A DNA stretch of 64,000 nucleotides from Prevotella sp. (GTDB lineage Bacteria > Bacteroidota > Bacteroidia > Bacteroidales > Bacteroidaceae), in contig JAFVFY010000051.1 in NCBI GenBank assembly GCA_017475265.1, forward strand, positions 1 to 64,000, given 5' to 3'. The position numbers and the translations under genes were made by a program. Below the pieces are notes generated by a model, which had not been told where the DNA came from, searched no databases, and worked only from the letters and a program-made list of their open reading frames with translations. This document shows, one piece after another, positions 9,935-47,792 of this stretch. Position 1 is the first letter of the stretch; every line of letters starts with the position of its first letter.

Positions 9935-9995
9935 AGTCTGAATGAAGGCGAGGTCATCAATAGTTGGTTGATGTGACGTTCATTCAGCCATGCAA

Positions 9996-12188
9996 ATGAT
10001 TGACAGGGCGACAGTAGACAAGATTATAGACGCGGCACGCATCGTCGATGTCGTAGGAGAGTTCGTCACGCTGAGGAAGGCGGGGGTGAACTACAAGGGT
10101 CTGTGCCCTTTTCACGATGATCGTAACCCATCGTTCATGGTCTCCCCGGCGAAGAACATCTGCCACTGTTTTGTATGTGGCAAGGGTGGAACGCCCGCGA
10201 AGTTCCTCATGGAACACGAGCAGATTACCTATCCCGAAGCCCTGCGCTGGCTTGCCCGCAAATATAATATAGAAATTGTAGAGAAGGAGCTCACCGACGA
10301 GGAACGGGCGCAGCAGAACGAGCGAGAGTCGATGTTCGTTGTCAACGAGTGGGCTCGCGACTGGTTCCATGAGACGCTGAAGAACGCCCCCGACGGCATC
10401 GCCATCGGCAAGCAGTATTTCCGCAGCCGTGGCATACGCGACGACATCATTGAGAAGTTCCAACTGGGCTATTCTCCTGCCCGCCGCGACGCGCTGGCAC
10501 AGGCGGCCCTAAAGAAGGGGTTCAAGGCAGAGTTCCTGGTGAAGACAGGGCTGTGCTTCAAACCCACCCCCAACCCCTCCCGAGGGGAGGGGAGCTTAGA
10601 TACATCTACCCTTCAAAATACCAGCGAACAAAGTAACTTATCTCCCCTCCCCTTGGGAGGGGTCGGGGGTGGGTCTGCTGAATCTTTGGTTGACCGCTAC
10701 CGTGGCCGCGCCATCTTCCCCTGGCTCAACGTCAGTGGCAAGGTGGTGGCTTTCGGAGGACGTGTGCTCGACAGCCGCACGAAAGGCGTGGCACAGAAAT
10801 ACGTCAACTCCCCAGACTCGGAGATATACCACAAGGAGCGTGAACTCTACGGTATCTACCAAGCGAAGAAGGCCATCGTAAAGGAAGACCGTGTTTTTAT
10901 GGTCGAGGGCTACACCGACGTCATTGCCATGCACCAGGCAGGTATAGAAAACGTGGTGGCCAATAGCGGAACGGCCCTCAGTATCTATCAGATACGAATG
11001 CTCCACCGCTTCACCTCGAACATTACTCTATTGTACGACGGCGACGAGGCCGGCATCCATGCTGCCATGCGCGGCACCGACATGCTGCTTGCCGAGGGAA
11101 TGAACATCAAGGTGCTGCTGCTACCCGACGGCGACGATCCCGACTCCTTCGCCCGAAAGCACTCTACCGAGGAACTGAAGAAGTACATCGACGAGAACCA
11201 GACAGACTTCATCACCTTCAAGACACGCCTCACTGTTCAGAACATCTCCGACCCCGTGAAGCGCTCGGCAGGTATTGGCGGCATCGTGAAGAGCATTTCC
11301 GTCATCCCCGACCAGATACTGCGCTCCACCTACATTGCCGACTTCGCCCAGCGCATCGGTCTGAAGGAACAGACGCTGGTGGCCGAGATGAACAAATACA
11401 TCCGAGCAGATATTGAGGAGAAGGCGAAGGAAAGAGAGAGAGAAGAAAGAAGGGAAAGTGCCAACAGCCCTACCGACCCCTCTCGCGAAAGCCCCCCCCC
11501 CGACCCCTCCCAAGAGGGGGAGGGGAATATATACTCTCAAGCACAGAAAGAAGGGCAGGAAGTGACCACTCCCCTCCCCCCAGCGGGAGGTGTCGGAGGT
11601 GGGGTTTCTGGGACTTCCTCTCCCGTTGAACTCCTCCTTGTCCGCGAACTCATCCGTCACGGCGACGAAATCATCTACAAGGACATTGAGACCGACGACG
11701 GACAGAAGGTGTCGCTCACCGTGGCACAGTACATCGACTACGACCTCTCACAGGACGATCTGCAGTTCGCCTCTCCACTACACCAGCAAATACTTGCCGA
11801 GGCCGTTGCCCGTTGCCAGGACACACCAGGATTCAAGGCCGAGACCTACTTCACCAACCATCGTGACCCACAGGTGAGCAACCTTGCGGCCAGACTTGCC
11901 ATGGATCGTCATCCGCTGGGTGGACGTTTCGTATATGACTTCAACGAGCAGGACGAAGCCAAACGTCACGAGAACCTGATTACCCGGTTGCGTCCTCGGG
12001 TGCTTCACCTCGTCATGGACTACCGCCTTGACCTCGTGGAGGCCCGACTAAAAGACATACAGCAACAGTTACGACAGGTGGGAAACAACATGGAGCGCAT
12101 GATGCAACTGCTGCAAGAACATAAAGAGACAAAGGAACTGCGCGATGCCCTGGCCAAGAACCTTGGCAGCGACGTGGTGGTAAATTGA
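9996..12188 (+). CDS. dnaG: DNA primase DnaG carrying two translated repeat insertions
   Basis: 730 residues from ATG 9996 (MIDRATVDK, the usual Bacteroidales start; an ATG at 9990 is possible). Makes RNA primers at the fork. The CHC2 zinc motif is present near residues 37-61 (CPFH then CFVC). The catalytic core shows the Toprim glutamate in VFMVEGYTDVIAMHQAG and the aspartates in LLYDGDEAG. A C-terminal helicase-interaction domain follows. Two family A elements sit inside the gene: one in a core loop (KPTPNPSRGEG...LPLGGVGGGSAES), the other in the linker before the C-terminal domain (PPPDPSQEGEG...PLPPAGGVGGG). Both are read in frame, so the protein is longer than usual. Confidence 0.96.
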   Translation: MIDRATVDKIIDAARIVDVVGEFVTLRKAGVNYKGLCPFHDDRNPSFMVSPAKNICHCFVCGKGGTPAKFLMEHEQITYPEALRWLARKYNIEIVEKELTDEERAQQNERESMFVVNEWARDWFHETLKNAPDGIAIGKQYFRSRGIRDDIIEKFQLGYSPARRDALAQAALKKGFKAEFLVKTGLCFKPTPNPSRGEGSLDTSTLQNTSEQSNLSPLPLGGVGGGSAESLVDRYRGRAIFPWLNVSGKVVAFGGRVLDSRTKGVAQKYVNSPDSEIYHKERELYGIYQAKKAIVKEDRVFMVEGYTDVIAMHQAGIENVVANSGTALSIYQIRMLHRFTSNITLLYDGDEAGIHAAMRGTDMLLAEGMNIKVLLLPDGDDPDSFARKHSTEELKKYIDENQTDFITFKTRLTVQNISDPVKRSAGIGGIVKSISVIPDQILRSTYIADFAQRIGLKEQTLVAEMNKYIRADIEEKAKEREREERRESANSPTDPSRESPPPDPSQEGEGNIYSQAQKEGQEVTTPLPPAGGVGGGVSGTSSPVELLLVRELIRHGDEIIYKDIETDDGQKVSLTVAQYIDYDLSQDDLQFASPLHQQILAEAVARCQDTPGFKAETYFTNHRDPQVSNLAARLAMDRHPLGGRFVYDFNEQDEAKRHENLITRLRPRVLHLVMDYRLDLVEARLKDIQQQLRQVGNNMERMMQLLQEHKETKELRDALAKNLGSDVVVN
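10562..10674. repeat. Family A GC-rich inverted-repeat element, first copy in dnaG
   Basis: Arms of 33 bp at 10562-10594 and 10642-10674 are inverted copies with about three mismatches. The left arm begins ACCCACCCCCAACCCCTCCC. Each arm is itself a C/G-tract hairpin. The unique centre spans 47 bp. It is translated without a stop. Confidence 0.82.
11492..11604. repeat. Family A GC-rich inverted-repeat element, second copy in dnaG
   Basis: Arms at about 11492-11525 and 11570-11604 are imperfect inverted copies (CGACCCCTCCC...GGGGGAGGGG). An extra partial arm (ACCGACCCCTCTCGCGA) precedes it at about 11471-11489. The whole segment is read in frame. Confidence 0.78.
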
Positions 12189-12207: not shown

Positions 12208-12558
12208 ATGTATTACATCAAAAAACGATTAGAAATCTCAGCCAGCCATAGGCTGGTGCTCGACTATGAGAGCAAGTGCTCACAACTGCATGGCCACAAC
12301 TGGGTCATAGAGCTATACTGCTGTGCCAAGGAACTGAACGAAAACGGCATGGTGGAGGACTTCACCTTCATCAAACGGAAGATTAAGGACCGACTGGACC
12401 ACCAGAACCTCAACGATGTACTCCCCTTCAATCCCACGGCAGAGAACATCGCCCGCTGGTGTGTGGAGCAGATTCCCACTTGCTATAAAGCTACCGTTCA
12501 GGAGAGCGAAGGTAACTGGGCCTGCTACGAGGAAGACTCTAGCCCCTTAGCCCCCTAA
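12208..12558 (+). CDS. queD: 6-carboxy-tetrahydropterin synthase QueD-like protein
   Basis: 116 residues of the PTPS/QueD family, which acts in the 7-deazaguanine (queuosine) pathway on dihydroneopterin triphosphate. Zinc ligands are visible in SASHRLV and in the LHGHNW pair, with the catalytic Cys just before it (ESKCSQLHGH), and a late glutamate in VQESEGNWACYEE. It starts 19 bp after dnaG. The last codons (SSPLAP and the TAA) are supplied by the family B repeat that begins at 12550, so the native C-terminus was probably changed by that insertion. No other queuosine genes are near. Confidence 0.85.
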   Translation: MYYIKKRLEISASHRLVLDYESKCSQLHGHNWVIELYCCAKELNENGMVEDFTFIKRKIKDRLDHQNLNDVLPFNPTAENIARWCVEQIPTCYKATVQESEGNWACYEEDSSPLAP

Positions 12559-12582
12559 GTTAGGGGGTTGGGGGTCTGAACA
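12550..12582. repeat. Half copy of the family B element at the queD stop
   Basis: One arm (GCCCCCTAAGTTAGGGGG, then TTGGGGGTCTGAACA) of the element found complete at 33188 and 47662. The matching inverted arm is absent. The TAA of the arm is the queD stop codon. Confidence 0.75.
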
Positions 12583-17614: not shown

Positions 17615-17746
17615 TTTAGAAAGTCCGGCACTTTCCCAGAGACAAAACGGCTTTTTCCCATAGAGAAAACGGCTTTCTCTAGTAGAGAAAACGGCTTTCT
17701 CTCATAGACAAAACGGCTTTCTCTGATAGAGAAAACCGTTTTCTTT
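17615..17746. repeat. 22 bp tandem array of small hairpins (family H), six units
   Basis: Units begin at 17615, 17637, 17659, 17681, 17703 and 17725, exactly 22 bp apart. The core GAGAAAACGGCTTTCTCT forms a hairpin of 6-7 bp with a short ACGGC loop. The first and last units are diverged. The array lies between the convergent 3' ends of the pectinase and buk genes. The same unit recurs at 48717-48804. Confidence 0.88.
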
Positions 17747-17764
17747 GCTTCAAACGACGGCTTA

Positions 17765-19248: not shown

Positions 19249-19393
19249 GGGAGTGAAAGGGGAGTGAACAGGAGTGAAAGGGGAGTGAAAGGGACGATAC
19301 TTCGACCCTCAATATCCCCTTAACCTCCATAACACAAGAGTAACATCCCTTTCACTCCCCTTTCACTCCTCTTTCACTCCCCTTTCACTCCCC
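19249..19393. repeat. Family I long inverted repeat between the small gene and the acyltransferase gene
   Basis: Left arm 19249-19294 is four units of GGGAGTGAAAG type. Right arm 19346-19393 is four units of CTTTCACTCCCC type. The arms are nearly perfect inverted copies of about 46 bp around a 51 bp centre. The right arm ends 7 bp before the ATG at 19401, so a transcript would carry a long hairpin right at the start codon. Confidence 0.88.
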
Positions 19394-29503: not shown

Positions 29504-30946
29504 ATGCAATATTATAGCACCAACCACCAGGCCCCTTTGGCCGATTTACGCAAGGCCGTCGTCAAAGGACTGGCCGAAGACCGTGGGCTTTACATGCCCA
29601 AGAAGATTCACAAGCTGCCGAAAGCATTCCTCGAGGACATGCCCTCCATGAAGTTCCGAGACATTGCCTACAACGTGGCTGCCGCCTTCTTCGGCGACGA
29701 CGTGGACAATGACGCACTCCAAGACTTGGTATACGACACCCTTTCCTTCGACTGTCCCATCGTGAAGGTCGAAGAGAACATCTATGCACTTGAGCTGTTC
29801 CATGGCCCGACCTTGGCTTTTAAAGACGTGGGCGCAAGGTTCATGGCAAGGCTGCTACAGTACTTTTTGAGAATGGAGAATGGAGATTTGAGATTTGAGA
29901 TGTCTGAATCACAAAACTCAAAACTCAAAACTCAAACCTCAAATCAAGTGAACGTTCTCGTGGCTACTAGCGGCGATACCGGATCGGCTGTGGCCAACGG
30001 CTTCCTCGGCGTGGAGGGTATTCACGTCTACGTGCTCTATCCCAAGGGAAAGGTGAGCCCCATCCAGGAGTGCCAGTTCACTACGCTGGGCAAGAACATT
30101 ACGGCAGTAGAGGTGGACGGCGTCTTCGACGATTGTCAGGCACTGGTCAAGAGCGCCTTCATGGACAAGGAGCTGAACGAGCACATGATGCTCACCTCGG
30201 CCAACTCCATCAACGTGGCCCGCTTCCTGCCTCAGGCGTTCTATTACTTTAATGCGGTGGCACGTCTGTTGAGAGTTCAGAGTTCAGAGTTGAGAGACTT
30301 TACATCTGATAACAACGGTAAAGTCTCTGAACACTCAACTCTCAACTCTCAACCAGTTATCTGTGTTCCCTCCGGCAATTTCGGCAACATCTGTGCCGCC
30401 CTCTTCGGTCACCAGATGGGTATGCCCGTCAAGCGGTTCATCGCTGCGAACAACGCCAACGACGTGTTCTACAACTACTTGCAGACGGGTGTCTATACCC
30501 CGCAACCGAGCATTCAGACACTGGCAAACGCTATGGACGTGGGCGACCCGTCGAACTTCGCACGCATCATAGACCTCTACAGCAAGGGCGGAAAGCTCTC
30601 GCCTGAAGAGACCCATCGCAAGATTACGAAGCTCATCAGCGGAGCCACCTATACCGACGACCAGATACGTCAGACCATGCGCCAGTGCTATAAAGAGACG
30701 GGCTACATACTCGACCCGCACGGTGCTTGCGGCTATCAAGCCCTGAAAGACCAACTGAAGCCTGGCGAGGTAGGCATCTTCTGCGAGACGGCCCATCCAG
30801 CAAAGTTCAAGGAGAAGGTAGACGAAATCCTGGGTATCGACGTCGAAATACCCGACCGTCTGGCCGCCTTCATGAAGGGCGAGAAGCAGAGCGTCCCCAT
30901 GACGAAGGACTTCGAGGACTTCAAGCGCTACCTTTTGACAGAATAA
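29504..30946 (+). CDS. thrC: Threonine synthase with two translated hairpin insertions
   Basis: 480 residues. PLP enzyme that converts O-phosphohomoserine to threonine. The PLP lysine lies in HGPTLAFKDVGARF, and the phosphate-binding loop is VATSGDTGSAVANGF. Further conserved blocks are LTSANSINVARFLPQ and VPSGNFGNICAALFG. Two segments interrupt family sequence: RMENGDLRFEMSESQNSKLKTQTSNQ between LLQYFL and VNVLVATSGD, and RVQSSELRDFTSDNN...HSTLNSQ between NAVARLL and PVICVPSGN. Both are translations of family C hairpin elements. The frame is intact and the catalytic regions are preserved, so the enzyme is probably active. Confidence 0.96.
   Translation: MQYYSTNHQAPLADLRKAVVKGLAEDRGLYMPKKIHKLPKAFLEDMPSMKFRDIAYNVAAAFFGDDVDNDALQDLVYDTLSFDCPIVKVEENIYALELFHGPTLAFKDVGARFMARLLQYFLRMENGDLRFEMSESQNSKLKTQTSNQVNVLVATSGDTGSAVANGFLGVEGIHVYVLYPKGKVSPIQECQFTTLGKNITAVEVDGVFDDCQALVKSAFMDKELNEHMMLTSANSINVARFLPQAFYYFNAVARLLRVQSSELRDFTSDNNGKVSEHSTLNSQPVICVPSGNFGNICAALFGHQMGMPVKRFIAANNANDVFYNYLQTGVYTPQPSIQTLANAMDVGDPSNFARIIDLYSKGGKLSPEETHRKITKLISGATYTDDQIRQTMRQCYKETGYILDPHGACGYQALKDQLKPGEVGIFCETAHPAKFKEKVDEILGIDVEIPDRLAAFMKGEKQSVPMTKDFEDFKRYLLTE
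29866..29946. repeat. Family C hairpin element, first copy in thrC
   Basis: A left arm of TTTGAGA-type units (29866-29899) faces a right arm of CTCAAAA-type units (about 29911-29946) around a centre of about 11 bp. It is read through in frame. Confidence 0.75.
30268..30353. repeat. Family C hairpin element, second copy in thrC
   Basis: 36 bp arms at 30268-30303 and 30318-30353 are inverted copies with about four mismatches, around a 14 bp centre. The C at 30285 where the partner arm predicts G turns a TGA into TCA in the thrC frame. Confidence 0.85.
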
Positions 30947-32422: not shown

Positions 32423-33187
32423 ATGGAAGAGAACAAGATTATAGCACCAGAAAACCTGGTATACAAGAAACCGTCGCTCCTGAACGACAACAACATGCAC
32501 TACTGTCCGGGATGCTCTCACGGCGTGGTGCACAAGCTCATCGCTGAGGTCATCGAGGAGATGGGCCTGGAGGAGAAGGCAGTAGGTGTAAGCCCTGTGG
32601 GTTGCGCCGTCTTCGCGTACAATTATATTGATATAGACTGGCAGGAGGCTGCCCACGGACGTGCTCCCGCATTGGCCACTGGCATCAAGCGTTGCTGGCC
32701 CGACCGACTGGTATTCACCTATCAGGGTGACGGCGACCTGGCTTGTATTGGTACCTGTGAGACCATACATGCCTTGAACCGTGGCGAGAACATCGTCATC
32801 ATCTTTGTCAACAATGCCATCTATGGCATGACAGGCGGACAGATGGCTCCCACCACGCTCATCGGCCAGAAGACCGCCACCTGCCCTTACGGCCGTGACC
32901 CGAAGCTGCATGGTTATCCCCTGAAGATGGCCGATATCGCTGCCGGGCTTGAGGGCACCTGCTACGTCACCCGTCAGTCGGTGGAGAGCGTCGCCAGCAT
33001 CAACAAGGCAAAGAAAGCCCTTCGCAAGGCTTTCCAGGCTTCGATGGACGGCAAAGGAAGCTCGCTTGTAGAGTTCGTAAGCACCTGCAATAGCGGCTGG
33101 AAGCTCACTCCCCAGCAGGCCAATGAATGGATGAAGGAACACATGTTCCCCTTCTACCCGAAGGGAGACTTAAAGGATACTATCTAA
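32423..33187 (+). CDS. 2-oxoacid:ferredoxin oxidoreductase beta (TPP-binding) subunit
   Basis: 254 residues. Binds thiamine diphosphate: YCPGCSHGVVHKLIAEV, then YQGDGDLACIGTCETIHALNRGENIVIIFVNNAIYGMTGGQM, which contains the GDG...N TPP/Mg motif. The family B palindromic element starts directly after its stop codon and separates it from the gamma gene. Confidence 0.93.
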   Translation: MEENKIIAPENLVYKKPSLLNDNNMHYCPGCSHGVVHKLIAEVIEEMGLEEKAVGVSPVGCAVFAYNYIDIDWQEAAHGRAPALATGIKRCWPDRLVFTYQGDGDLACIGTCETIHALNRGENIVIIFVNNAIYGMTGGQMAPTTLIGQKTATCPYGRDPKLHGYPLKMADIAAGLEGTCYVTRQSVESVASINKAKKALRKAFQASMDGKGSSLVEFVSTCNSGWKLTPQQANEWMKEHMFPFYPKGDLKDTI

Positions 33188-33306
33188 GCCCCCTAAGTTT
33201 GGGGGTTGGGGGTCTGAACAAGCGCAGACGCCCTTCGAAGTATTAATATAGATTAATGGGTCTGATGCCCGCTTGTTCAGACCCCCACCCCCCTAACTTA
33301 GGGGGC
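33188..33306. repeat. Complete family B palindromic element inside the oxidoreductase operon
   Basis: 37 bp arms at 33188-33224 and 33270-33306 are inverted copies with about two mismatches (arm: GCCCCCTAAGTT, GGGGGTTGGGGGTCTG, AACAAGCG). The centre of 45 bp differs from that of the copy at 47662. The first part of each arm is itself a hairpin (CCCCCTAAnTTnGGGGG). It lies between the beta and gamma genes. Confidence 0.88.
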
Positions 33307-33313
33307 TACGAAG

Positions 33314-41999: not shown

Positions 42000-42448
42000 T
42001 GCAACTTTTCTCACGAACTTTTTTTAAAAACACTATACATTCCTACATTTCTCTTATAACTTACACATATACAGAGTATTATACCATGTATAGACCATAC
42101 ATTTTTGAGTGCCACTATACACAGGCATAGAACGGACTTTATCAACATATTTGACGGAGGAATGTAGTAACAATAACCGACCTTTGATTCAGTTTCTCCC
42201 GTGGAAACTGTTTGTTTCTGCCGTAGAAACAAATTGTTTCCACGGCAGAAACAAACAGAAACAAACTGATTATCTGACACTTAGATGCGTTATTGTGGTT
42301 ACTATCCTACGTCTTTTCTCAATTTGTGTATAGAGCTTATCAATTATGTATGCTCTATACATAACCTAAACCATTTATATTTAGATATTTACATTAAAAA
42401 TGTAGGAATGTATAGTGTTTTTAAAAAAAGTTCGTGAGAAAATTTGCA
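42000..42448. mobile_element. Non-coding element bounded by 51 bp inverted repeats (MITE-like)
   Basis: The left end 42000-42050 (TGCAACTTTTCTCACGAACT...) and the right end 42398-42448 are inverted copies with one mismatch (50 of 51). The 449 bp between the outer ends hold no plausible gene. They contain several TGTATAG/CTATACA motifs and a three-unit 22 bp hairpin array at 42192-42257. No target duplication is obvious at the flanks. It could be a non-autonomous transposon or a structured RNA locus. Confidence 0.78.
42192..42257. repeat. 22 bp array (family H) at the centre of the inverted-repeat element
   Basis: Three units begin at 42192, 42214 and 42236, each a small hairpin of the GTTTCTnCCGTAGAAAC kind. 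A partial fourth follows at 42258. Confidence 0.78.
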
Positions 42449-46626: not shown

Positions 46627-46647
46627 TATTTTCTTACACTTTACACT

Positions 46648-46792
46648 AATTGAGATAAATACTTTCACAAATTAGGATAAATATTGGCACTAATTTGGAT
46701 AAATACTTTTCATAATTTGTGAGATAGATTTATCACAATTAGTGTGAAAGTATTTATCCCAATTAGTGTGAAGACATTCATCCTAATTAGTA
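46648..46792. repeat. 22-24 bp array (family H-like) between the zinc-ribbon and C1 peptidase genes
   Basis: GATAAAT cores at 46654, 46676 and 46698 are 22 bp apart. AGTGTG/AGTATT cores at 46741, 46765 and 46789 are 24 bp apart and in the opposite orientation (ATTAGTGTGAA against TTCACAAATTAGG). The two halves are therefore inverted relative to each other. Confidence 0.78.
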
Positions 46793-47661: not shown

Positions 47662-47792
47662 GCCCCCTAAGTTAGGGGGATGGGGGTCTGAACAAGCGTT
47701 TATGCAAACCCGTTTAAGATGATGATTACTATGTTTATAGGGATTGGAAGCCTGCGCTTGTTCAGACCCCCAACCCCCTAACTTAGGGGAGC
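47662..47792. repeat. Complete family B palindromic element between nif3 and the zinc-ribbon gene
   Basis: Arms of about 37 bp at 47662-47698 and 47755-47792 are inverted copies (CCCCCTAAGTTAGGGGG, then GGGGGTCTGAACAAGCG) and match the 33188 element. The centre of about 56 bp is unrelated to it. It touches the last base of the nif3 stop codon. Confidence 0.88.

Follow-up and report, generated by a model that had tools for sequence, protein, structure and literature searches.

Palindromic elements inserted in frame in a Prevotella dnaG gene and their possible link to DUF559 nuclease genes

Two elements in the primase gene and their family in the source genome

The window, i.e., the whole analyzed stretch of 64,000 nucleotides from Prevotella sp. 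(contig JAFVFY010000051.1), contains an intact frame for DNA primase, in which two palindromic elements, E1 and E2, are embedded (Table 1). The source genome (G000) is a 4.75 Mb assembly of 135 contigs. Pfam matches of the DnaG protein comprise Zn_ribbon_DnaG, DNAG_N, Toprim, and DnaB_bind. Each arm of E1 and E2 is a REP-like unit, consisting of the hairpin CCCCTCCC..GGGAGGGG and an outward-pointing tail GGGGGTGGG. The arms of E1 are 45 nt long, 87% complementary and 29 nt apart, and the 111-nt core of this element (10563-10673) is translated as PTPNPSRGEG..SPLPLGGVGGG. The arms of E2 are 38 nt long, 79% complementary (8 mismatches), and separated by 43 nt. The top inverted-repeat score of dnaG was 27, the maximum over 200 dinucleotide shuffles was 14, and removal of both elements lowered the score to 10; hence, the palindromes are not due to chance.

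Table 1. Coordinates of dnaG, its palindromic elements, and type-B palindromes in the window.
Feature	Position	Strand	Basis
dnaG, DNA primase, intact 732-aa frame hosting E1 and E2	9990..12188	+	ORF list, Pfam
E1, in-frame palindromic element in DNAG_N domain	10559..10677	.	inverted-repeat search, Pfam
E1 left arm (hairpin and outward C-rich tail)	10559..10603	.	
E1 right arm	10633..10677	.	
E2, in-frame element in linker preceding the C-terminal region	11489..11607	.	inverted-repeat search, Pfam
E2 left arm	11489..11526	.	
E2 right arm	11570..11607	.	
Type-B arm overlapping the 3' end of ORF 12208-12558	12551..12580	+	
Type-B palindrome pair (hairpin outward), between two ORFs	33187..33307	.	
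Type-B palindrome pair, apparently intergenic	47664..47789	.	

The original prediction, made from the sequence of the window alone, that the primase gene carries two palindromic elements in frame was borne out, E1 and E2 being inverted repeats within an open gene of 732 codons. The 33-nt arms proposed for E1 (10562-10594/10642-10674) are indeed palindromic, with two mismatches rather than about three; calling the arms near-intact is justified for E1 and generous for E2. E1 splits the DNAG_N domain, which is seen as two stretches in the Pfam scan (profile positions 1-65 and 67-128). E2 is located downstream of the DnaB_bind match (418-460), in a stretch whose length varies among relatives. Extra residues at the E1 site are lacking in 26 of 29 aligned DnaG proteins of relatives, and three (L039-L041) contain other filler there. 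Members of the same family were nevertheless detected in other genomes, G075 having one at the E1 site, and G023 and G171 having one each at the E2 site.

A search with the arm pattern (up to three mismatches) retrieved 45 copies from the source genome, and none with the reversed-pattern decoy. Most arms form outward-facing pairs; the sites inspected contained 8 single arms and 20 pairs, among them E2 and C67a, both with more diverged arms, and an exact-pair search added one further pair on C62. Of the 20 pairs, half are located well inside a long frame (ten pairs, all in phase 0). Hosts of these pairs besides dnaG, as identified by Pfam, encode PPDK_N, UvrA, TRCF/Mfd, PIF1-like helicase, Lon, and GH3 proteins; the remaining two encode an InlB-repeat protein and a protein whose GH20-like match is weak, falling below the cut-off. 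The other ten pairs, which are mostly longer and AT-rich between the arms, were found near frame ends, in short frames, or where no long frame is present. E1 is 90% identical to the UvrA copy over 111 nt, and the loop of E2 is similar to that of the C74 / InlB-repeat copy elsewhere in the genome, so the elements appear to be copies of one another. A family dispersed in this manner and residing in frame in several essential and housekeeping genes agrees with the selfish-like character ascribed to the inserts earlier.

Retention in open frames and sites of insertion

Exact arm pairs of 96-126 nt were identified in 28 of 200 genomes of the genus, 112 pairs in sum, the decoy giving none. Of these, 84 distinct pairs were examined and 28 were left out; the first set contained 74 pairs (75 places, one of which was removed as lying at a contig end), and ten were added, one for each genome otherwise not covered. 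Sixty-four of the 84 elements (56/74 and 8/10) are embedded in an open frame that extends for 60 or more codons on each side, such a frame not being equivalent to a proven gene, as Pfam confirmation of hosts was limited to the source-genome copies. When insertion of the same elements into the same loci was simulated at random, 379 of 1105 placements (34%) were in frame (p=4e-13 vs. 56/74); random 111-nt segments fell within open frames in 758 of 1105 cases. The elements are thus located in frames about as often as any other DNA, and they are in frame far beyond what blind insertion yields. These data support the dependence of their retention on an open frame. A single reading phase for all in-gene copies, which held in the source genome, was rejected for the genus, where phases 0, 1, and 2 account for 38, 23, and 3 of 64 elements (32, 22, and 2 of the 56 from the first set). 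The modal element length is 111 nt (27/74), and in-frame copies of 109 and 110 nt are mostly read in phase 1, bases at the border completing them to 111; no explanation for the length peak was found among the 74 elements.

The original prediction held that the elements are selected to be translatable, and it is their frame-dependent retention that stands. Among 22 in-gene phase-0 copies of 111 nt, the changes at codon positions 1, 2, and 3 number 573, 567, and 578, respectively (67 non-independent pairs at 72% identity or more). Equal change over the three positions argues against selection for the encoded peptide; at the protein level, the insert is tolerated rather than conserved. Moreover, the loops between the arms differ freely, and phase 0 is not common to all copies, some being in phase 1 or 2. 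Taken together, these observations suggest that "translatable" means stop-free, in frame, and tolerated by a linker, a property for which survivorship seems to account.

Alignments with orthologs from up to six relatives demonstrated that the insert often replaces a variable loop of the host: some 13-16 residues in Lon, PMDGGDP-like residues in GH3, and about 10 residues in PPDK. The source-genome insert is absent from all relatives compared for Lon (5/5), GH3 (6/6), PPDK (5/5), and the Pif1-like protein (3/3). The UvrA and Mfd linkers of relatives hold other fillers; among three relatives, one Mfd contains a same-family element with a different reading phase, a second Mfd contains a repeat of another kind, and two of five UvrA relatives have other repeat-like inserts. 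No target duplication was evident in the six host alignments, made with relatives that are not closely related, which display loop replacement or filler. Several sites recur across species, namely the Mfd linker (five copies in one cluster, and an additional one in G099, L337, identified by eye), the DnaG E2 site (three), and the DnaG E1 site (two).

Such recurrence, as well as the presence of replication and repair proteins (DnaG, UvrA, Mfd, Pif1-like) among the source-genome hosts, could suggest that the inserts are adaptive linkers or modifiers of DnaG, UvrA, and Mfd activity, as has been speculated for REPs in repair genes. However, the codon positions reveal no bias, Lon, GH3, PPDK, and a surface protein are found among the hosts as well, and the same linkers are occupied by unrelated fillers in some relatives, which makes an adaptive role very improbable.

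DUF559 genes nested between palindromes

A DUF559 gene (PF04480, E=1.8e-31), the single PF04480 match in the source genome, was found between two arms of the E1/E2 family at C99 (L080 3994-4469). Its frame runs through the right arm into IspF (YgbB), forming one frame of 297 aa. DUF559 is present in 121 of 200 genomes of the genus. Two sets of loci were analyzed: 71 genus loci (31 given and 40 chosen from the listed places), of which 62 score, and 80 loci in named genomes taken from 553 relatives, of which 67 score. In total, 125 of 146 distinct loci have palindromes across both flanks (score >12), L212, which has no right flank, being counted as a miss. Control placements scored above 12 in 0 of 145 cases with 300-nt flanks and in 4 of 264 with 400-nt flanks, three of these four falling in DUF559 loci. 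Many loci are kin by descent (10 with IspF, 9 with Gmk, 8 with a synthetase), and the 146 loci therefore do not represent 146 independent insertions.

DUF559 was detected in 36 of 38 genomes with at least five arms and in 85 of 162 others (p=2.5e-7, uncorrected for phylogeny); the two arm-rich genomes with no DUF559 match, G116 and G117, are both incomplete (55% and 73%). The corresponding numbers for the RAYT domain are 25 of 38 and 86 of 162 (p=0.20, likewise uncorrected). The latter comparison bears on the possibility that E1 and E2 are ordinary REP/BIME-like palindromes moved by a RAYT (Y1/HUH transposase) and kept by chance in linkers. An inverted doublet of REP-like hairpins does resemble REP dimers, intragenic REPs are described in the consulted part of PMC3733652, and the source genome has three Y1_Tnp matches. 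However, the repeat that flanks its best RAYT locus (L035) is a different one, this locus contains no arm cores, the best flanking repeat of ten Y1_Tnp loci of the genus is never of the E1/E2 type, with one arm core within 3.3 kb in L196, and arm number is not tracked by RAYT presence in the 200 genomes. Given the different flanking repeats and the lack of correlation, we consider this explanation improbable and reject RAYT as the mobilizer of the family.

Divergence of the arms is correlated with that of the nuclease (Mantel r=0.47; permutations gave at most 0.18). Where one genome has several DUF559 genes, their arms differ; in 19 of 23 cases, the similarity between same-genome arms is lower than that to the arms of the closest DUF559 elsewhere (mean 0.31 vs. 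0.51), and in the other 4 of 23 the nearest protein elsewhere has no closer arm than the same-genome loci. Simple linkage would also produce the correlation of arm and nuclease divergence. DUF559 genes change at codon positions 1, 2, and 3 in proportions of 25/17/58% (186 pairs), and the ExD(G/C)..H motif is kept in 146/146 loci, two of which (L229 and L265) contain stops. The nuclease is thus under purifying selection, and the short inserts are not. Comparison of the DUF559 profile with PDB yielded 3hrl (E=4.7e-29) and 3r3p, "Mobile intron protein" (E=2.1e-8), which we take to be I-Bth0305I.

By open frame, the 146 DUF559 loci were classified as internal (22), fused in front of (21) or behind (7) another protein, and standing alone (96). 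Sixteen of the 22 internal ones were scanned with Pfam, and in 13, according to our reading of the Pfam tables, host domains are present on both sides of DUF559; the hosts are LeuRS, a class I synthetase (presumably of the ValRS/IleRS type, judging by its motifs), RecG, an ABC-F-type ATPase, MazG, DegT, GH31, and MmeI. The three remaining hosts comprise an AAA_11 helicase, a SpoIID-containing protein, and an amino-acid kinase, the last of which is more aptly regarded as a fusion. IspF, Gmk, and SpoU are among the fusion partners, and clustering of the flanks suggests further members of the fusion and host groups. A scoring palindrome is retained in 13 of the 22 internal loci. The RecG loop preceding the MTATPIPR motif is occupied by a short element in G088 and by DUF559 in two Flavobacteria loci (L251 and L264), the identity of the loop being judged from the C-terminal flank. 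By sequence, the RecG site is thus a bridge between the short elements and the DUF559 elements.

An in-frame DUF559 insert was also found in the single-contig genome G133. This observation is relevant to the suggestion that the inserts result from misassembly, or that they are removed by splicing or bypassed, which might be entertained because the source assembly is fragmented into 135 contigs. The occurrence of family members at the corresponding DnaG and Mfd positions of other genomes argues against an artefact as well. The Rfam search for intron RNA at gathering thresholds gave 0 matches in 11 sources, and scanning of the host proteins with Pfam, at E-value limits of 1e-3, 1e-5, and 1e-10, revealed no intein/Hint domain, so intron or intein splicing is without support. 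This explanation as a whole appears extremely improbable.

A third possibility, the main alternative to the origin proposed below, is that the palindromes are an independent repeat family mobilized by another agent, and that DUF559 is a homing-type parasite which targets them and resides within them but does not move the short copies. It agrees with the homology of DUF559 to a homing nuclease, and with the presence of one nested DUF559 copy against 45 arms in the source genome. The second palindrome type, which is related to the first, is also of relevance. Type-B arms number 100 in the source genome, where the sole DUF559 is the type-1 one, and in G055 and G060 there are DUF559 genes with type-B-like arms on their flanks. 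Such arms can therefore rise in number or persist with no resident cognate nuclease, which fits either this third possibility or a past, lost nuclease. On the other hand, DUF559 presence tracks arm number, and DUF559 elements with arms occupy protein linkers themselves, the RecG site hosting a short element as well. We consider it unlikely that DUF559 is such a passenger.

The distribution of DUF559 extends beyond the genus, as it was found in 170 of 296 genomes across the phylum. Among 30 Bacteroidota loci outside the genus, at least one of which (L393) apparently coincides with L255, 14 score and 11 are internal; by this ungapped test, the link with palindromes is weaker there. In the plasmid set (Alphaproteobacteria, Cyanobacteria, and Deinococcus), comprising 14 of 51 records chosen among environmental bacteria, 10 of 14 DUF559 loci score, one of them (L433) also in one control; controls scored in 1 of 28 same-locus placements and in 14 of 182 combinations of mismatched, G/C-rich flanks. 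The arm of the Qipengyuania citrea plasmid DUF559 is nearly identical to that of the dnaG element. Paired CGTC-like repeats, as judged by a provisional CGTC consensus, were not seen flanking the 14 plasmid loci.

Proposed origin of the elements and known systems

The explanation that we consider most probable takes E1 and E2 for short, non-autonomous copies of a mobile element with palindromic arms, the full form of which contains DUF559 between the same two arms. As expected of MITE-like elements, the terminal arms are common to E1/E2 and to the C99 DUF559 element, the latter being the putative autonomous form. From the homology to a homing nuclease we infer cutting and repair-mediated copying: the DUF559 nuclease would cut such sites or DNA close to them, and repair would then copy the element in, often with replacement of a part of the host linker. 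Short copies would originate from loss of the nuclease gene or would be mobilized in trans; mobilization by DUF559 is thus a prediction from sequence comparison. In-gene copies would survive if they are stop-free, in frame, and located in a tolerant linker, and the survivors would be translated within the host protein. More tentatively, at somewhat less than even confidence, we propose a widespread class of elements in which a homing-type DUF559 resides between cognate G-rich palindromes and spreads in frame, along with nuclease-free offspring, into linkers of essential proteins, forcing the host to translate it.

The palindrome-nested nuclease, found in frame in LeuRS and RecG, is a concrete enzyme candidate for in-gene palindromes, and the nesting points to a role of this widely distributed "domain of unknown function." The proposed mechanism would account for the odd proline/glycine-rich linkers of Bacteroidota proteins and would provide selfish DNA with a way of adding linkers and domains to essential proteins; if it is true, the parasite even supplies the N-terminus of IspF or Gmk.

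Several known systems share features with these elements. First, the Rickettsia palindromic elements (RPEs) and the Wolbachia WPEs are described, in the consulted parts of PMC3767692 and PMC10969869, as in-frame palindromic elements of 100-150 bp in unrelated genes, inserted in solvent-exposed parts of proteins; these parts name no mobilizer. The likeness to E1/E2 concerns the size, the in-frame location in unrelated genes, and the presence of different inserts at possible hotspot sites. In contrast to RPEs, the arms of E1/E2 are G/C-rich, with the hairpin and tail given above, the phylum is different, and a nuclease gene is nested; E1 contains neither CGTC nor GACG and is set apart from the RPE families by description.

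Second, GTAG and CGTC REPs occur inside replication and repair genes, and CGTC REPs "apparently lack a dedicated transposase" and are not associated with transposase genes, according to the part of PMC3733652 consulted. As far as that part extends, CGTC REPs resemble our elements in being hairpin units that are mostly inverted dimers, intragenic, and in many cases located in replication and repair genes; the differences are the absence of the CGTC tag from E1, the longer arms, and the association with DUF559. REPtrons (RAYT with GTAG REPs), described in the same paper, likewise combine an enzyme gene between cognate palindromes with many short genomic copies. However, the enzyme here is a PD-(D/E)XK nuclease and not an HUH tyrosine transposase, many copies are in frame in genes, and the GTAG tag is absent from the E1 arms.

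Third, a DUF559 gene has been assigned to the EDxHD family (PMC9403480), which includes homing endonucleases such as I-Bth0305I (PMC3943268, PMC9403480; consulted in part). The 3r3p profile match and the acidic ExD(G/C)..H motif in all 146 DUF559 proteins are in line with this assignment. Unlike EDxHD homing genes, DUF559 was found with no intron or intein detected around it, is flanked by palindromes, and apparently stays translated in the host protein. Fourth, the sections consulted report DUF559 fused to a SPOUT methyltransferase (PMC1829167) and describe Caulobacter VsrA as DUF559, a Vsr-like nuclease (PMC12907096). Here, too, DUF559 is fused to or stands freely near housekeeping genes; in those sections, neither palindromes nor the mobility of short copies is mentioned.

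In the open-access literature searched, we found no report that connects DUF559 with palindromic elements. Within that literature, in-frame palindromes are known, as is DUF559 as an EDxHD/Vsr-like nuclease and a fusion partner; what is apparently new is the link between them, and, if it is true, the same logic might provide the missing mobilizer of other in-gene palindromes, e.g., RPEs.

Arm structure and apparently shared insertion sites

Each arm strand of the E1/E2 family, the palindromic elements carried in frame by dnaG, contains four G-runs arranged as GGGAGGGG-NN-GGGGGTGGG, in the E1 core as well as in other arms; by its base sequence, such a strand could form a G-quadruplex besides the hairpin. 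Several repeat families seem to use the same tolerant linker sites, as in relatives the corresponding linkers of UvrA (L305 and L309), Mfd (L299) and DnaG (L040) hold other in-frame repeat inserts, which look unrelated to the E1/E2 family. DNAG_N matches were also found in two more long frames of the same genome (L001 and L002, 986 and 1058 aa, on contigs C134 and C3), probably primases of mobile elements.

Other repeats of the genome

The related type-B palindrome looks recently active, since 56 of its 100 arm copies in this genome are identical. No DUF559 nuclease gene with type-B arms was found in this genome; in genomes G055 and G060 of the genus, DUF559 genes (L115 and L181, respectively) are flanked by arms similar to type B. 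Around the genome's best RAYT transposase (Y1_Tnp; L035, contig C37) lies another long repeat, which contains GCCCCGAAGGGGCGACA units and is a REP system separate from the E1/E2 family. Further strong inverted repeats of the window belong to other sequence types, with units such as GGAGTGAAAGGGGAGTGAA and GTTGAGAGTTCAGAG.

Palindromic and inverted repeats in the window
Feature	Positions
E1 core, four G-runs per arm strand	10563-10673
Type-B palindrome pair	33187-33307
Type-B palindrome pair	47664-47789
Type-B arm	12551-12580
Other inverted repeat	19249-19392
Other inverted repeat	30268-30353
Other inverted repeat	42153-42313
Other inverted repeat	46639-46773
Other inverted repeat	17664-17749

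DUF559 neighbourhoods and fusions

DUF559 is fused in front of the host protein in the IspF cluster (L093 and cluster of 10 loci) and the Gmk cluster (9 loci). In L093, an ATG is not evident at the usual IspF start, and therefore the nuclease frame may supply the IspF N-terminus. Two DUF559 genes on Sphingomonas parapaucimobilis plasmids (L422 and L427) lie one between a GatB/YqeY gene and dnaG and one between sufB and sufC, and both have short G/C-rich palindromes on their flanks.
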